NCBI GenBank assembly: GCA_938044775.1
Contig: CALIOE010000065.1
Coordinates: 1-37,225 of the forward strand
Direction: 5' to 3'
Source of the DNA: an uncultured Rhizobiaceae group bacterium
GTDB taxonomy: Bacteria > Pseudomonadota > Alphaproteobacteria > Rhizobiales > Rhizobiaceae
Length of the DNA stretch: 37,225 nucleotides
The notes beneath the pieces are model-generated. The model did not search any database and was not told where the DNA came from. It saw only the letters and a list, made by a program, of their open reading frames with translations. The stretch's first letter is position 1; each line of letters starts with the position of its first letter. The position numbers were made by a program, and so were the translations under genes. This document shows, piece by piece, positions 731 through 30,005 of this stretch.

Positions 731-2614
731 ATGTCAGCGGATGATGCATTTGACATTGTTGTAGTGGGTGGTGGCCACGCGGGCACGGAGGCTGCCGCTG
801 TTGCCGCGCGCATGGGCGCCAGGACGGCGCTCGTCACCCATTCCTTCTCGACCATTGGGACGCTTTCCTGCAACCCCGCTATCGGTGGACTTGGTAAGGG
901 TCATCTGGTGCGTGAAATCGATGCGCTGGATGGGCTTATGGCGCGCGTGGCAGATCAGTCCGGCATTCAGTTCCGGATGCTGAACAGTCGTAAGGGTCCT
1001 GCCGTCCGTGGGCCGAGAACCCAGTCTGATCGAAAACTCTATCTACAAGCCATGCAGCGCGAAATTTCGGCGATAGACAATCTCACCGTCCTTGAAGCGG
1101 AGGCGGCCGATGTTCTGCATGATGACAGGGCGGTTGTTGGTTTGAAGCTGGTCGATGGACGCCAGCTCAAATGTGCAGCGGTTGTTTTGACGACCGGAAC
1201 ATTCTTGCGGGGACTCATCCACATCGGAGAGAAAAAGATTCCGGCCGGTCGCATGGGCGAGAAGCCCTCCGTTTCTATGGCTAATACACTGGATAGGCTC
1301 GCCCTTCCCTTGGGACGGCTGAAAACCGGCACGCCGGCGCGGCTTGACGGCCGCACGATTGACTGGAATCGGGTCGAAATGCAGCCCGCCGACAATCCGC
1401 CGGTTCCGTTTTCGACACTGACACAGCGCATCTCGGTACCCCAAATTGAGTGCGGAATAACCCGCACAAACGCCGCCACCCATGCCATCGTTCGGGAGAA
1501 CGTGAATCGCTCGGCAATGTATTCCGGTCAGATCGAAGGCGTTGGCCCGCGCTACTGTCCCTCAATCGAAGACAAGATTGTCAAATTCGGCGAACGGGAC
1601 GGGCACCAGATATTTCTTGAACCAGAAGGGCTCGATGATCACACGGTTTATCCCAACGGAATCTCCACATCACTTCCGGAGGAGGTTCAGGCTGCGTTCA
1701 TTGCGACGATTCAGGGTCTTGAGCGGGCGTCAATTCTTCAGCCGGGCTATGCAATCGAATACGACTATGTGGATCCCCGCGCGCTCCACCCCACACTGGA
1801 AACCCGAGCCTTGTCGGGATTCTACCTGGCGGGCCAGATAAATGGAACGACAGGTTACGAGGAGGCGGGAGCGCAGGGACTGGTTGCCGGACTGAATGCC
1901 GCTCTGCAGGCCTCTGGCAGGGAACCATATGTCTTTAGCCGCACACAGTCCTACATCGGCGTAATGATCGATGACCTGGTCACGCGCGGCGTTTCAGAGC
2001 CCTATCGCATGTTTACCTCGCGGGCAGAGTATCGACTCAGTCTGCGGGCGGACAATGCCGACCAGCGGTTGACCGCAATCGGTGTTGAATTGGGCTGTGT
2101 TGGCCACCTCAGAAAGCGGGCTTTCGAGCAGAAGTGCGCTCAACTCGAGGATGCTCGCACTTTGTGTGACTCTGTAAGCCTGACGCCCAACGAGGCGCGA
2201 AAGGAGGGTCTGAATATCACGATGGATGGTGTCCGCCGCAGCGCGTATGACCTGATGACCCATAGTGATATCGATTTCACAGATATGGTGCGCATCTGGC
2301 CGCAGCTCGACCGGATCTCCGCGGACATTGCTCAGCAAATTCAGATAGATGCAGGATACTCGGTTTATTTGGAGCGACAGAAAGCCGATATTGACGCGGT
2401 TCTCAAGGATGAGGCGCGCGCGATACCTGCAGATTTTTCCTACGAAGACATCGCCGGACTTTCCAACGAGCTAAAGTCGAAGCTTGAAACCGTCCGGCCT
2501 CACTCAATTGGGCAGGCGGGCCGGGTCGATGGCATAACACCCGCCGCCCTCACCCTTCTTCTGGCGCATGTGAAGAAGCATGAGTTGGCAGTGATTAAAA
2601 GCAATGTTGCCTAG
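731..2614 (+). CDS. mnmG: tRNA uridine-5-carboxymethylaminomethyl(34) synthesis enzyme MnmG (GidA)
   Basis: FAD- and NADH-dependent partner of MnmE in wobble-uridine modification. The N-terminus carries the dinucleotide-binding motif [13 protein letters not shown] (about residues 9-21). The two family signatures are present: [19 protein letters not shown] near residue 48, and [16 protein letters not shown] near residue 370. The C-terminus ends in the helical region that contacts MnmE. The 627-residue length is normal for the family. I chose ATG at 731; a GTG at 722 would add three residues, and neither has a clear ribosome binding site. The gap before it holds two parS sites, and rsmG starts only 3 bases after its stop, so the two are probably co-transcribed. 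Confidence 0.97.
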
Positions 2615-23460: not shown

Positions 23461-24225
23461 CTATTGCATTGACATCAAAACCGTTCGTGTCTCCTCGTCC
23501 GCCGGAAACATCAATTCGATCTTCAGTTCTGACAGAGCAATGTCCTCTGCTGTGCCGAACTGCCCGAAGGTTGAAAAGAAGGAGAAGGTTTGACCACCGG
23601 TGGTGTAACGGGCTGGAATGAAGGCCGGCATCAGGCCATCGGGAGGTGTGCTCTCCGGATTGCGCTCGCTGATCAGCTTATCGATTGCCGCCTGAAGCAC
23701 GGGGTCGCCGCCAAGGTGATTGCTCTCAGTGCGCAGACGGGCAATCGTATGTTCGATCACCTCATCAATGTTTTCGATGGCGGCTCGAACGGCCTGGTTG
23801 TCGGCCAGTGTCGTGAGAATTGAGTCGCCTGGCTGCACACCCATGCCGGCCATCAGCAAAGTTGCTGTGTTGTTCATTTTGACAATCGACCAGTGCTTGT
23901 CTAGCGCGATGGCTGGAAATGGATTGTGTTTCTCGAGCATCCAGTCGACTGCTGCGCGAACCGGGGCCATGTCATTCTCGCTAAGATCGCGATCGCCGTA
24001 GGCCGGAGCAAGACCGGCGGCCGACAGCAGTTGATTGCGTGCCAGGAGGGGTATGTCCAGCTCTTCGCACAACATCAGCACCATGGCGCGACTGGGTCGA
24101 GAACGCCCGGTTTCCAGAAACGAAATATGGCGTGCAGATACATTGGCATTGAGGCCGAGATCAAGTTGACTCATGCGTCGCTGGTTGCGCCAGTCTTTTA
24201 AGGCAGTGCCAAATTCCAGACCCAT
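23461..24225 (-). CDS. XRE-family regulator with MmyB-like ligand-binding domain
   Basis: 254 residues: a helix-turn-helix domain at 5-65 (ALKDWRNQRRMSQLDLGL and SARHISFLETGRSRPSR), then a PAS-like C-terminal domain beginning near PVRAAVDWMLEKHNPFPAI, with ALDKHWSIVKMN typical of MmyB-like (MLTR) ligand-binding regulators. These often control a neighbouring divergent gene and bind a fatty acid or similar ligand; here the neighbour encodes a four-helix membrane protein. The start at ATG 24225 follows GGAGG by 9 bases. A palindrome in the 135-bp intergenic region is a candidate operator. Confidence 0.92.
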   Translation of the reverse strand: MGLEFGTALKDWRNQRRMSQLDLGLNANVSARHISFLETGRSRPSRAMVLMLCEELDIPLLARNQLLSAAGLAPAYGDRDLSENDMAPVRAAVDWMLEKHNPFPAIALDKHWSIVKMNNTATLLMAGMGVQPGDSILTTLADNQAVRAAIENIDEVIEHTIARLRTESNHLGGDPVLQAAIDKLISERNPESTPPDGLMPAFIPARYTTGGQTFSFFSTFGQFGTAEDIALSELKIELMFPADEETRTVLMSMQ

Positions 24226-24360: not shown

Positions 24361-24798
24361 ATGTCTTTCCAGACGAGCGTAACCTGCCTGAAAATATCCT
24401 CGATATTGCTGATTGTACTCGGGGCCCTGTTCAGCTGGACCACCGTTGGCCCATGGGCCCAATACAACCTCCTGTTCGTTGATTTTATCATTGGGCCCTT
24501 CGACGGTGGACAGTCCTATTCGGCCACTGAGACACGCCTGCTTGCAGCCATAACGGGCGGTATTACAACCGGACTGGGGGTGCTGTTCTGGATGATCACG
24601 CATTTCGTCTACGCATCGGATCCGGTTCTCGGTAGGCGCATGATTCTGGCCGGCATTTGCTCCTGGTTTGTTGTCGACAGTGTTGGGTCAATGTTGGCGG
24701 GAGCGCCGTTCAATGTGATCGCCAATGCAGGCCTGCTGCTGATGTTTGTTCTCCCCGTGGTACTGGTGTCGGCGGAAGACCGCGCCCAGACGGTGTAG
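24361..24798 (+). CDS. Four-helix integral membrane protein, unknown function
   Basis: 145 residues with four hydrophobic segments at about 10-30, 60-82, 92-112 and 115-136. The loop between the first two (about residues 31-59) holds PWAQYNLLFVDFIIGPFDG. The family is not recognised. ATG 24361 was chosen because AAGGA lies upstream and an earlier in-frame ATG (24247) would add 38 residues of unlikely composition that overlap the intergenic palindromes. It is divergent from the MmyB-like regulator, so it is a likely regulatory target. A strong terminator follows 17 bases after the stop. Confidence 0.75.
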   Translation: MSFQTSVTCLKISSILLIVLGALFSWTTVGPWAQYNLLFVDFIIGPFDGGQSYSATETRLLAAITGGITTGLGVLFWMITHFVYASDPVLGRRMILAGICSWFVVDSVGSMLAGAPFNVIANAGLLLMFVLPVVLVSAEDRAQTV

Positions 24799-24815
24799 AA
24801 CCGGGCACAAAAAAA

Positions 24816-24847
24816 GGGCCGCCTGATTGAGGCGGCCCCGCATTTTT
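24816..24847. terminator. Strong bidirectional intrinsic terminator
   Basis: A perfect 9-bp stem GGGCCGCCT/AGGCGGCCC with loop GATTG is followed on the plus strand by CGCATTTTT, and on the minus strand directly by a run of seven T. It ends the membrane-protein gene on the plus strand and the small 25-codon gene on the minus strand. Confidence 0.9.
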
Positions 24848-24907
24848 CAAATCCGGAGGGTCTGTCAGCTGACGGCTAAGTCAACACTGAAACCCGACAT
24901 CCGGTTA

Positions 24908-24985
24908 TCAGGATGAATGTGAAGGCTGCTCCATCACTCTTCCCTCAAACAAAGACCCGACCGGCTTCGTTGAAATGCTCGACAT
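24908..24985 (-). CDS. Small protein gene, 25 codons, with own promoter and terminator
   Basis: The reading frame encodes MSSISTKPVGSLFEGRVMEQ followed by PSHSS, soluble and without a membrane segment. Several signals argue for a real gene. AGGAGG lies 7 bases before ATG inside a 13-14 base stretch complementary to the 16S rRNA 3' end. A sigma70-like promoter lies 38 bases upstream of the start. A strong T7-run terminator lies about 70 bases downstream of the stop. The expected transcript is about 210 nt, so a dual-function RNA is possible. The 3' part contains a 10-base palindrome GTCAGCTGAC (24864-24873) inside a longer possible hairpin. No homologue is recognised, and the upstream esterase gene ends 95 bases away. 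Confidence 0.6.
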   Translation of the reverse strand: MSSISTKPVGSLFEGRVMEQPSHSS

Positions 24986-25022
24986 CAGATCACCTCCTTT
25001 CAATGCGTTAGACACGAATCAG

Positions 25023-25051
25023 ATTATGGGGTCGAATGGAGGTCCTGACAA
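25023..25051 (-). promoter_or_regulatory. Sigma70-type promoter of the small 25-codon gene
   Basis: On the minus strand TTGTCA (25046-25051) and CATAAT (25023-25028) are separated by 17 bp; each hexamer differs from consensus by one base. The start point would be near 25016, leaving a leader of about 31 nt before the ATG at 24985. Confidence 0.65.
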
Positions 25052-25872: not shown

Positions 25873-26078
25873 CGGCAGACCATGGCAAAATTTGCTGCTC
25901 ACGAAAAATCACAATCGTATTAATCGGTGATTCTCCCACCGCAATTCGTCCAATCCTGACAGCAACTGGCAGCACTGGTCGAAAACGGCGCGGTTCGGGC
26001 CTCTGTCGGGTTGCGCTTTGACGCTTGCTGTTGAACCTTGGCGCTGAAACGAGTTCTCTCCCTTGCGGCTGCCATCCG

Positions 26079-27281
26079 ATGACCCTCACGATTACCAACC
26101 AGCAGGCCCGGCACCTGATTCTGCACCTTCAGGGCATGACAATGCAGCCGCATTTTCGGCTCGATCCGGCCGGCCTTTGCCGGCTGATCGAACAGATGGG
26201 TTTTGTGCAGGTCGACTCGATTCAGTGGGTAGAGAGGGCGCAGCACATGATCCTCTACGCCCGCAACCAGACCTACCGTCCTAAACATCTGCAACGCCTG
26301 ATCGAGCGCGACAAAAGGCTGTTCGAAAACTGGACCCATGATGCATCGGTCATTCCGTCGGCTTTCTATCCCTACTGGCGGCACAGGTTTGAACGCATGC
26401 GCGAAAAGCTGGGTCAGAAATTTGCCAGCTGGCAGGGTGAGGGCTACCGGGAGAAATGTGAAGCGATGTTGCAAAAAGTGCGACAGGAAGGGTCGCTGCG
26501 CTCGCGTGATCTTGAGCGCGAGGACACCGGCCCGCAGGAAATGTGGCAATGGCATGATGGTAAGGCGGCGTTGGAATTTCTCTGGCGCACCGGCGATCTG
26601 TGCATTGCCGGACGGGATGGATTTCAGAAAATTTACGACCTGTCCCATCGCGGCGTCCCGGAAGAGCACTTTGACGCCCGAGTCAGCCACGCGGAATTTG
26701 TCGACTGGGCCTGCCGTTCGGCTCTGGACAGGCTGGGATTTGGCACTGCCGGGGACATTTCACGGTTCTGGGAATTGGTCACAATTGCCGAGGCGCGTGA
26801 CTGGCTTGCAGAGCAGGGTGACAACTCCGTGTGCCAGGTTGGCATTCAGGGGGCCAGGGGAAAGCCCACCAAGACAATGGCCGCGAGGGCAGACATTGCA
26901 TCATTGATCGAGTCGCTTCCGCCACTTCCCAAACGGGTTCGCGCTCTGTCGCCGTTTGACCCGGTCATTCGCGACCGCAAGCGTCTGGAATGGCTGTGGG
27001 ACTTCGACTACCGCATTGAGATCTATGTGCCTGAAGAAAAGCGCGTCTGGGGCTACTACGTATTCCCGTTGCTGGAGGGCGACCGGCTTATTGGCCGCAT
27101 CGATATGCGCGCGCACCGCAAGAACCAGTCGCTCGACGTAAAGCGGTTATGGCTTGAGCCCAGGGTCAAACTGTCAAATGCCCGCAAAACCCGCCTCGAC
27201 GCGGAGCTGGTGCGACAGGCAAGGCTCGGCGGTGTAAACGATGTTATCTGGCTCGACGGTGCGTTAAACCAGCACTCGTGA
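26079..27281 (+). CDS. YcaQ/AlkZ-type winged-helix DNA glycosylase
   Basis: 400 residues of the HTH_42 superfamily. Bacterial YcaQ unhooks interstrand crosslinks and AlkZ removes azinomycin adducts using a QxQ or QxD motif; here FVQVDSIQWVERAQH carries Q-V-D. Tandem winged-helix segments follow, with FENWTHDASVIPS and the C-terminal LSPFDPVIRDRKRLEWLWDF, both typical of the family. The start at ATG 26079 fits the family N-terminus (ITNQQARHLILHLQG); the upstream extension has no similarity. A hairpin follows the stop. The precise lesion is unknown, but the catalytic motif is kept. Confidence 0.88.
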   Translation: MTLTITNQQARHLILHLQGMTMQPHFRLDPAGLCRLIEQMGFVQVDSIQWVERAQHMILYARNQTYRPKHLQRLIERDKRLFENWTHDASVIPSAFYPYWRHRFERMREKLGQKFASWQGEGYREKCEAMLQKVRQEGSLRSRDLEREDTGPQEMWQWHDGKAALEFLWRTGDLCIAGRDGFQKIYDLSHRGVPEEHFDARVSHAEFVDWACRSALDRLGFGTAGDISRFWELVTIAEARDWLAEQGDNSVCQVGIQGARGKPTKTMAARADIASLIESLPPLPKRVRALSPFDPVIRDRKRLEWLWDFDYRIEIYVPEEKRVWGYYVFPLLEGDRLIGRIDMRAHRKNQSLDVKRLWLEPRVKLSNARKTRLDAELVRQARLGGVNDVIWLDGALNQHS

Positions 27282-28134: not shown

Positions 28135-28557
28135 TTACCAGGAGCGCCGCGGTCCCGTGTCAATATGGATGTGGCCGCCGCGGTTGCCACGATACCGCTT
28201 GTGGCCACCCACCGCGGACTGGTCTTTGACATATTCGTAAACGGCCCCCATGTCCGCATCGACCTTGAAGTCCACGGCCCGGCAGGTCTTGTGATAAGAG
28301 CCGCTGGCGCCACCGATGCGGCGGTTGTGCCATGGGCTGCGCCAAGTGGACCCCACATGTACGTCACCATAATTATGAGCGACACGGCGCAGGACGCGTT
28401 TCAGCTTCCATGGGACACACCAGGACGCGCCGCGATAGTTTACTTCGCCCTCACCACCAATGCGATACAGGCCGGGCAGGCTCGAGCAGGCTGCCAGCAA
28501 AAACAAACAAAGTGCGAGCGTGAGCGATTTAAGAATTCCTGCCTCAGGCGTGACCAT
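28135..28557 (-). CDS. M15-type peptidase lipoprotein (small)
   Basis: 140 residues. A lipoprotein signal ends at LLAAC, with the acylated Cys24. The mature domain has STWRSPWHNRRIGGASGSYH, then CRAVDFKV (H89 and D96 as the zinc-ligand SxHxxxxxxD pattern), and GGHIHIDTGPRRSW (H129/H131). This is the D-Ala-D-Ala carboxypeptidase-like M15 fold, which cleaves or binds peptidoglycan peptides in the periplasm. A longer paralogue with the same ending lies 0.6 kb to the right. The start ATG 28557 has CAGG 6 bases upstream. Peptidase activity is inferred from the metal ligands. Confidence 0.82.
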   Translation of the reverse strand: MVTPEAGILKSLTLALCLFLLAACSSLPGLYRIGGEGEVNYRGASWCVPWKLKRVLRRVAHNYGDVHVGSTWRSPWHNRRIGGASGSYHKTCRAVDFKVDADMGAVYEYVKDQSAVGGHKRYRGNRGGHIHIDTGPRRSW

Positions 28558-29135: not shown

Positions 29136-29921
29136 CTACCAGGTACGCTTTGGCCCGGTATCGATGTGGTAGAAACCTCCACGGTAGCGCTTGTATCCTC
29201 CTACTAACGGATGACGTGCGAGCCACCGCGTCAGTCCTCTGGTCCGTCCGCGAACCCGAAAATCCACAGCACGGCAACCCAGATGGTAGGATCGGCGTTT
29301 GCCGCCAACGCGTCGATTATGACCGCGACTGCGGTAGGTGCTGTTGACGACAACAGGACCGAAGCGACGGGACACCTGGCTGATAACCTTCTTCAGTCGC
29401 CCGGGCACGCAGCGCCATGGAGCATTAAGGCTCACCCTGCGCGACCGGCCGGCCACATAAGCCGCCTTGCGCGTTTTCACCCGAACTTTCTTGCTGCGGG
29501 ATGTACGGCGGGCTTTACGTTTGTTGGTTTTCGATGCAGCCCGCTTTTTGCTTTTGCGTTTTTTCTTGGTGACCAGGAGGGCGGTGCGCGTTCCCTTTGA
29601 CACCTTTTGGGCCTTGCGTTTCTTTCGCCTCTCGGCGCGCTTGGATTTTCGCAGGGCAAGTGCATCGCTGCGCTTCTGCTTGAACTCCCTGGCCGATTTT
29701 TCTTTCAAGGCTTTCGCGCGCTTACGGGCGCTGAGAATTTTTGCCTGCCTGCTCTTTTCAACCGCCGAGAGGCTGGCGGTCCTTTTTGCACCGTCATGAG
29801 TGCTGGTGGTGGTTTGTGTGCACGACGCGATCAACAGCGCCGAAAATGCGAGAAGCGCCAGACGGGCGACCGGAAAAATACTATTCACAATTGTTATCCA
29901 GTTGGGGCACGACAATATCAT
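29136..29921 (-). CDS. M15-type peptidase lipoprotein with long Lys/Arg-rich linker
   Basis: 261 residues from ATG 29921; ATG 29939 or GTG 29888 are alternatives, and the GTG start would give a compact 23-residue lipoprotein signal. The lipobox is LIASC (Cys34 from the chosen start). Residues 56-162 are a low-complexity linker in which almost every second residue is Lys or Arg. The C-terminal domain has NSTYRSRGHNRRVGG, SYHLGCRAVDFRV (H213, D220) and YKRYRGGFYHIDTGPKRTW, the same M15 pattern as the smaller paralogue nearby. The linker could bind acidic polymers such as LPS or peptidoglycan-associated material; this is inference. Confidence 0.8.
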   Translation of the reverse strand: MILSCPNWITIVNSIFPVARLALLAFSALLIASCTQTTTSTHDGAKRTASLSAVEKSRQAKILSARKRAKALKEKSAREFKQKRSDALALRKSKRAERRKKRKAQKVSKGTRTALLVTKKKRKSKKRAASKTNKRKARRTSRSKKVRVKTRKAAYVAGRSRRVSLNAPWRCVPGRLKKVISQVSRRFGPVVVNSTYRSRGHNRRVGGKRRSYHLGCRAVDFRVRGRTRGLTRWLARHPLVGGYKRYRGGFYHIDTGPKRTW

Positions 29922-30005
29922 CCCCACCCCGGAACTCATTGCACAGGCCTGTTAAAGCAAGCCAATTTGGACTCTTGGTGAATTGTGGCCTCTCCATGGC
30001 GGCGG

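Follow-up and report, generated by a model that had tools for sequence, protein, structure and literature searches.

A DUF1127 gene of S. meliloti is reported to be controlled by an upstream open reading frame (uORF) that has been proposed to monitor ribosome availability (PMC12218461). In Flavobacterium johnsoniae, the extended Shine-Dalgarno (SD) sequence of rpsU is described as a sensor of ribosomes lacking bS21 (PMC9976891), and extended SD sequences of Staphylococcus aureus are reported to guide initiation (PMC13009471). The published examples of ribosome-supply sensing that we found are leaders acting in cis (PMC12218461, PMC9976891), whereas the RNA considered here stands alone. It is encoded in 37,225 nt of DNA from an uncultured Rhizobiaceae group bacterium (contig CALIOE010000065.1), a stretch that we term the window.

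The locus shares features with each of these systems and departs from each. As with the reported DUF1127 leader, there is a short frame for which the RNA appears to matter rather than the peptide; however, that leader acts in cis on a downstream gene (PMC12218461), and no such gene was found for the window RNA. As with rpsU, pairing with the 16S rRNA tail is exceptionally strong, a property that at rpsU is described as serving regulation; in contrast, the rpsU SD controls a ribosomal-protein gene and the window frame codes for nothing conserved (PMC9976891). A further parallel is rnTrpL/peTrpL of S. meliloti, a trans-acting small RNA (sRNA) that contains a short translated frame but differs in being leaderless, in deriving from the trp attenuator and in having a peptide reported to be functional (PMC10117765). 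Of the 54 small frames newly found to be translated in S. meliloti, the same source places a third on annotated sRNAs (PMC10117765), so that a translated sRNA would not be unusual in itself. In addition, two earlier Caulobacter noncoding RNAs of the Landt 2008 set, left unnamed in the relevant passage, are reported to be translated (PMC4117421).

Architecture of the unit and its predicted pairing with the 16S tail

A reading of the window from its letters alone (the sequence-only reading) had proposed a complete, stand-alone transcription unit with a near-consensus promoter, a 13-14-base ribosome site complementary to the 16S 3′ end, a 25-codon frame, a terminator followed by T7, and a 10-base palindrome in the 3′ part. 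Every one of these elements was recovered on the minus strand (Table 1), where the unit spans from the promoter at 25051 to the terminator at 24815; a complete, stand-alone unit is thus supported. Promoter, ribosome site and frame are also conserved among relatives, their absence there being part of what the sequence-only reading had named as evidence against its proposal. What that reading overlooked is a fold that begins 7 nt past the A of the ATG and extends through the unit as far as the terminator, and a relation to the Rfam family CC2171.

Table 1. Features of the unit in the window (P1 to P4, helices of the predicted fold).
Feature	Position	Strand	Basis
Promoter: -35 TTGTCA (25051-25046), 17 nt spacer, -10 CATAAT (25028-25023)	25023..25051	-	10/12 matches
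Extended SD GAAAGGAGGTGATC, complement of the 16S 3′ tail	24988..25001	-	Duplex energy; 20 aligned relatives
25-codon frame, ATG 24985 to TGA 24910-24908, peptide MSSISTKPVGSLFEGRVMEQPSHSS	24908..24985	-	
P1 5′ arm GCAUUU, within the frame	24973..24978	-	Partner 24845-24840; alignment-free test, 129 loci
P1 3′ arm AAAUGC, abutting the terminator on its 5′ side	24840..24845	-	Genus fold; alignment-free test
P2 5′ arm GCCGG..GGGUCU, within the frame	24953..24965	-	Genus consensus fold; 54-sequence pair counts
P2 3′ arm AGACCC.CCGG, beyond the frame	24853..24863	-	Genus consensus fold; 54-sequence pair counts
P3 hairpin, apical motif GAG-CAGC-CUU (24931-24922), then the stop codon	24912..24943	-	Motif in 91/153 loci
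P4 hairpin GUUGAC/GUCAGC, restricted to the genus and a few relatives' copies	24868..24885	-	Gapped in most of 54 aligned sequences
10-base palindrome GTCAGCTGAC	24873-24864	-	
Intrinsic terminator, 10-pair stem, then T7 (24814-24808)	24815..24839	-	Terminator found in 136/153 loci

The core of the ribosome site is the 13-mer AAAGGAGGTGATC (25000-24988, minus strand), to which a single further base at 25001 adds the remainder of the extended SD, and the computed duplex with the 16S tail contains 14 Watson-Crick pairs and one wobble. The leader is complementary to almost the entire 16S 3′ tail. Its energy is -27.1 kcal/mol; the next best among 37,206 stretches of 20 nt in the window reaches -19.0 (mean -5.45, sd 2.55), and pairing energies with the 16S tail of -27.1 to -30.4 kcal/mol were computed in all. 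The expectation that anti-SD pairing of this length is rare was thus borne out: the site is the best in the window, and the whole assembly (4.18 Mb) contains a single copy of the 13-mer. Ribosome binding by the window RNA is predicted from this pairing.

Three of six relatives searched (G007, G036 and G452) also carry the 13-mer. Both G007 and G036 have exactly two copies, one in the unit and one that is complementary to the 16S 3′ end, and therefore neither assembly has another gene with such a ribosome site. The only copy in the G452 assembly lies inside its unit, and exact searches of G029, G158 and G152 gave no copy, even at the 16S gene; in these four genomes the 16S end may differ from the complement of the 13-mer or be missing from the assembly. 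Among the 126 loci that were collected without GAA in the search pattern, 108 have GAA directly before AGGAGG, and the pairing is thereby lengthened in the direction of the 16S 3′ end.

Twelve of 60 fetched loci lack GGAGG, having instead GGAAGG (ten), GGATGG (one) or GGGGG (one). The GGAAGG sequences form a clade of Rhizobiaceae in which the leader match is interrupted, though the bulged duplex scores -26.6. A strand complementary to the altered site is found behind the open reading frame (ORF) of the GGAAGG and GGATGG loci (mean z -2.35, n = 11, one of them at +0.39); pairing of the SD with the post-ORF region is not enriched in 124 other loci (mean z -0.16). The loci concerned are L294, L296-L301 and L305-L307 (GGAAGG) and L303 (GGATGG, where the strand is doubtful). 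Because this CCUUCC-type strand crosses P1, its pairing would either be mutually exclusive with P1 or form a pseudoknot, and a switch specific to this clade is possible. Two more general arrangements were discarded. The SD can pair with GGAGCAGCCUC, but this motif is better explained as hairpin P3 than as part of a general SD-sequestering helix. A pseudoknot between the leader and the inner region gave -8.36 for own pairs against -7.66 (sd 0.16) for permuted pairs, a weak difference that is inflated by relatedness.

Distribution of the family and its relation to CC2171

When 61 relatives (the source genome included) were searched by blastn, 30 genomes gave a match, which covers the ribosome site in 24 and lies elsewhere in the query in the rest. 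A block close to TTCAAC....GAAAGGAGGTGATCC.ATGTCGAG is common to twenty aligned copies, whose peptides differ. Of 151 loci, 95 have a CTTG -35 element at -55 to -51 relative to AGGAGG, compared with 2 after shuffling. Exact patterns were found in 42 of 297 genomes of the order, and a slightly wider pattern in 38 of 289 genomes of the class. In a sample of the phylum the strict pattern occurred in 32 of 249 genomes, all within the class, Alphaproteobacteria (32 of 67, against 0 of 182 outside it). A scan of named genomes matched at least 119 stretches; among the matches listed are Mesorhizobium, Hyphomicrobium, Aureimonas, Stappia, Hyphomonas, Oceanicaulis, Parvularculaceae, Rhodobacteraceae, Rhodospirillaceae and others, as well as one record labelled Hydrogenophilales. 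No match to the unit was obtained by blastn in a plasmid collection. We also observed that blastn gave no match to the unit in G014, a 0.9-Mb genome of 98% completeness that is listed in one genus with genomes of 2.4-4.8 Mb.

Searches with the covariance model R2 detected the RNA in 64 of the 81 genomes of the window's family and gave no match in the other 17. Across the class it matches 57 of 192 genomes at E 0.01, 29 of which reach E 1e-5; R2 was built mostly from Rhizobiales-side sequences, and distant copies were probably missed. Its weak matches include false ones, such as L311 (E 1.4e-4), which begins in a long open frame, as does L320 from outside the class (E 0.0064).

Similarly organised units were observed in another class of the phylum (L319/L321, L322 and L323, at about 1500). 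Specifically, 3 of 368 genomes of that class have the leader TAAGGAGGTGATC, behind which lie short frames (18, 22 and 11 codons) and terminator-like hairpins. These three units score E 1.3e-8, 6e-9 and 1.8e-4 with R2, values that apply to a small sequence set, and the first of them had emerged, at E 1.1e-6, from a search of 40 genomes that do not belong to the Alphaproteobacteria. Here TAAGGAGG would presumably complement a 16S end of the CCUCCUUA type. Blastn found no counterpart of the other-class unit in E. coli.

The closest family in Rfam is RF01867 (CC2171, a Caulobacter sRNA), whose model aligns with the entire window unit (24.6 bits, E 0.0014). This is below the gathering cut-off of 75 bits, so that the score does not confer membership, and a gathering-level Rfam scan of the window returned no family. 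The link emerges through other copies. R1, a model made with sequences of the window's genus plus one relative from the family, finds L171 at E 1e-4, and L171 scores 93.6 bits in Rfam, above the cut-off. Furthermore, each of the 14 submitted loci (11 distinct) above the cut-off is also recovered by R2, with E values from 9e-8 to 4e-5; in L200 and L214 the R2 match extends over the 22-nt leader only. Homology to CC2171 members that pass the cut-off was thus found through intermediates, and by these sequence comparisons the window unit is a distant homolog of CC2171. Both have the leader CAAC..GAAAGGAGGUGAUCC.RUGUC, P1 after the start codon and the terminator; they differ in that CC2171 is filed in Rfam as an sRNA and in the low score of the window copy. 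Used directly, the CC2171 model exceeds the cut-off in 1 of 61 relatives' genomes; at E values up to 1 it matches 46 of the 61, yet 6 of 14 controls taken from other groups match as well, and hence its weak matches are not specific.

A literature search for CC2171 by name gave no functional study and no description of a frame or of 16S pairing. A 215-nt transcript, MH_s33, is listed as CC2171 in an RNA-seq survey of Mesorhizobium huakuii (PMC5596092), and would be the Mesorhizobium form of the window unit. The Rfam 15 paper names RF01867 among families whose structure was improved, in this case by one covarying pair.

Covarying fold and overlapping open frame

A common fold was predicted for the genus, in which P1 reaches from 7 nt past the A of the AUG to just before the terminator, followed by P2, P3 and P4. 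The 205-nt window RNA is more stable than expected (z = -3.19, with 0 of 200 shuffles equally stable), although its own minimum-energy fold pairs the P2 3′ arm elsewhere, unlike the genus consensus fold. The post-ORF hairpin of that minimum-energy fold, which competes with P2, looked unconserved in relatives on comparison by eye and was set aside.

In an alignment of 54 sequences, 86.8% of the cells of paired positions can pair, compared with 63.8% after shuffling; because the sequences are related, such shuffle counts, like those of the P1 and P3-motif tests below and of the pseudoknot above, are not probabilities. Changes on both sides were seen in 38 of 42 pairs, and sliding the partners along the alignment lowers pairing to 37-50%. 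Since this alignment was made by R1 and is fitted to the model structure, P1 was tested free of alignment. Helices of at least 7 pairs between the post-start arm and the pre-terminator stretch of the same locus occur in 44 of 136 loci; among swapped pairs the figure is 153 of 1981. The mean duplex energy of own pairs is -7.95 kcal/mol, whereas permuted pairs average -5.67 (sd 0.19, minimum of 1000 permutations -6.28; 129 loci). Of these loci, 42 rank in the best 5% of their own swapped pairs and 7 do worse than the median. The arms themselves vary widely, as in GUGAGAU/AUCUCAC, AUUGUCA/UGACAAU, AUGAGAUU/AAUCUCAU, GUAGUUUC/GAAAUUGC and GCAUUUU/AAAAUGC. The P3 motif, GRG-CARY-CYY, is seen in 1 of 153 loci after shuffling (Table 1); 62 of the 153 natural loci have no recognisable motif.

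The 5′ arms of P1 and P2 and all of P3 overlap the frame, and the 3′ arms of P1 and P2 and the terminator lie outside it; fold and open frame are two overlapping constraints. Codons 5-17 contain no in-frame stop in any of 153 dereplicated loci, whereas the other two frames have stops in 73 and 30; the count begins at codon 5 because the stops of frame +2 include the TGA of a conserved GAGTGA. In 147 of the 153, the frame reaches its first stop at codon 15-30. A stop follows the P3 motif within 30 nt in 88 of 91 loci, whereas the other two frames have one there in 12 and 15; loci that read P3 in a different frame show the same (17 of 17 and 4 of 5). The pattern that defines the 153 loci requires RTG, and the start codon was therefore judged on 90 loci fetched for model matches: 79 have ATG, 6 GTG and 4 TTG, and one is a false match, although these loci are a subset of the model matches and R2 itself was trained on sequences with a start codon. 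The AUG, GUG or UUG stands 7 nt (once 6) behind GGAGG.

The encoded peptide is treated differently by evolution. Between paired copies (56 pairs), non-synonymous changes number 166 and synonymous ones 69, where 171.7 and 63.3 were expected (ratio 0.89), and the ratio becomes 0.97-1.06 once transition bias is included. Changes at first, second and third codon positions number 169, 167 and 143, so that third positions are not more variable. The ratio is about 0.6 in copies of 21 and 23 amino acids and 1.6-2.0 in those of 22 and 25; the largest class (23 amino acids, 24 pairs) has 0.60, or 0.68 with transition bias, which hints at weak constraint on the peptide in one length class. Purifying selection on the amino-acid sequence, which a small-protein gene should exhibit, was not found in the 56 pairs. 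In contrast, the conserved open frame, start codon and ribosome site are features that a dual-function (translated) sRNA would have. The peptide thus appears to evolve about neutrally, with the length of the frame and the position of its stop conserved, which suggests that translation itself matters and not its product. A peptide of 18-35 codons would hardly leave the ribosomal tunnel.

Genomic context and candidate functions

The next gene in the window (24361-24798) is convergent with the unit. Of the 153 loci, 44 have enough flank to place the next ORF, which is convergent in 24 and co-directional in 20; the largest downstream family shared among them (8 loci) is convergent, and these 44 revealed no conserved co-directional downstream gene, as an attenuator or leader would have, that most copies share. 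The commonest neighbour family lies upstream (31 of 147 loci), and one co-directional family is found downstream in 22 of 147 loci at a median of 1041 nt. We take HtpX-like genes to be among the recurring neighbours of related copies. A DUF1127 leader was rejected since no DUF1127-like motif lies within 1.5 kb of any of the 153 loci, and amino-acid attenuation was rejected on the ground that the peptides have no run of one amino acid.

Some further features of these regions were observed. The region in the window is flanked by an AlkZ-like DNA glycosylase gene (26025-27281) and an MmyB-type (MLTR_LBD) regulator gene (23461-24225), and two Peptidase_M15_3 genes lie within 2 kb on the minus strand (28135-28557 and 29136-29939). 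In L018 the alphaproteobacterial sRNA ar14 of Rfam (1729-1850, minus strand) adjoins the unit on the opposite strand. The ffh sRNA of Rfam lies near one copy (L213:639-690), and a tRNA (L254:8-78) lies beside the copy of the 8-Mb genome G071.

With moderate confidence, we favour a stand-alone translated regulatory RNA for which translation, and not the peptide, would be the functional event and whose folding would report ribosome loading. The anatomy was established by sequence comparison, from which we infer the following mechanism. A 30S subunit would dock on the leader through near-complete pairing with the 16S tail. The ribosome would initiate, translate about 20-26 codons, open P1, P2 and P3 on its way and leave at P3, such that the fold could form only between ribosomes. 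The RNA would thus switch between two states, an open one that is occupied by a ribosome while initiating ribosomes are plentiful and a folded one that accumulates as they become scarce. Candidate outputs are action in trans, by holding 30S subunits, by pairing with mRNAs or through RNA turnover. More tentatively, and with considerable doubt, we suggest that the RNA might be a widespread alphaproteobacterial gauge of free, initiation-competent 30S subunits, in which each ribosome loaded on the leader would erase the fold as it reads a meaningless frame and the folded form would be the active regulator when ribosomes are short.

Other readings account for part of these observations. An ordinary trans-acting sRNA that base-pairs with mRNAs, perhaps with Hfq, and whose frame is translated only to tune RNA stability would explain the stand-alone unit with its housekeeping-type promoter, structure and intrinsic terminator, and would suit the filing of the related CC2171 as an sRNA. 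We consider it unlikely, because the best-conserved stretch is the ribosome site with the start codon rather than a seed elsewhere. The 16S-tail pairing energies given above would equally serve a decoy that sequesters 30S subunits with no need for translation, but such a decoy could dispense with the start-codon spacing, the open frame and the fixed stop, all of which are kept, and this makes it decidedly improbable.

The sequence-only reading had itself offered a highly expressed small protein, or a dual-function RNA that binds the 3′ end of the ribosome's RNA and regulates translation. The dual-function RNA is partly supported, in that the conserved site, frame and covarying fold speak for a role at the RNA level. 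A functional small protein is not supported: peptide changes are near neutral expectation despite the open frame and fixed stop. A gene for a functional 25-residue peptide would account for the conserved open frame, start codon and length, for the common N-terminal MS(S/H/N) and for the low ratio of the 23-amino-acid class; given the overall ratio, the lack of excess change at third positions and the reading of the P3 region in different frames, we think there is little chance that it is correct. Least credible, to the point of being nearly dismissed, is a leader or attenuator of a downstream gene. A short frame, overlapping helices and a terminator are attenuator parts, and neighbours recur near related copies, including the co-directional family noted above; however, the gene following the unit in the window is convergent, orientations among the 44 loci are mixed, the largest shared downstream family is convergent, and the DUF1127-like motif is absent from the surroundings of all 153 loci. 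Overall, the original observation was confirmed and its interpretation was partly right: the favoured translated regulatory RNA would carry a conserved frame that is ready for translation and apparently indifferent to its peptide.

For the annotation of small proteins these findings advise caution, as a conserved and well-initiated frame need not encode a functional peptide. If the favoured reading is true, a function would be assigned to the Rfam family CC2171, and the RNA would represent a separate route that couples translation capacity to gene expression and that has been kept across much of the class.
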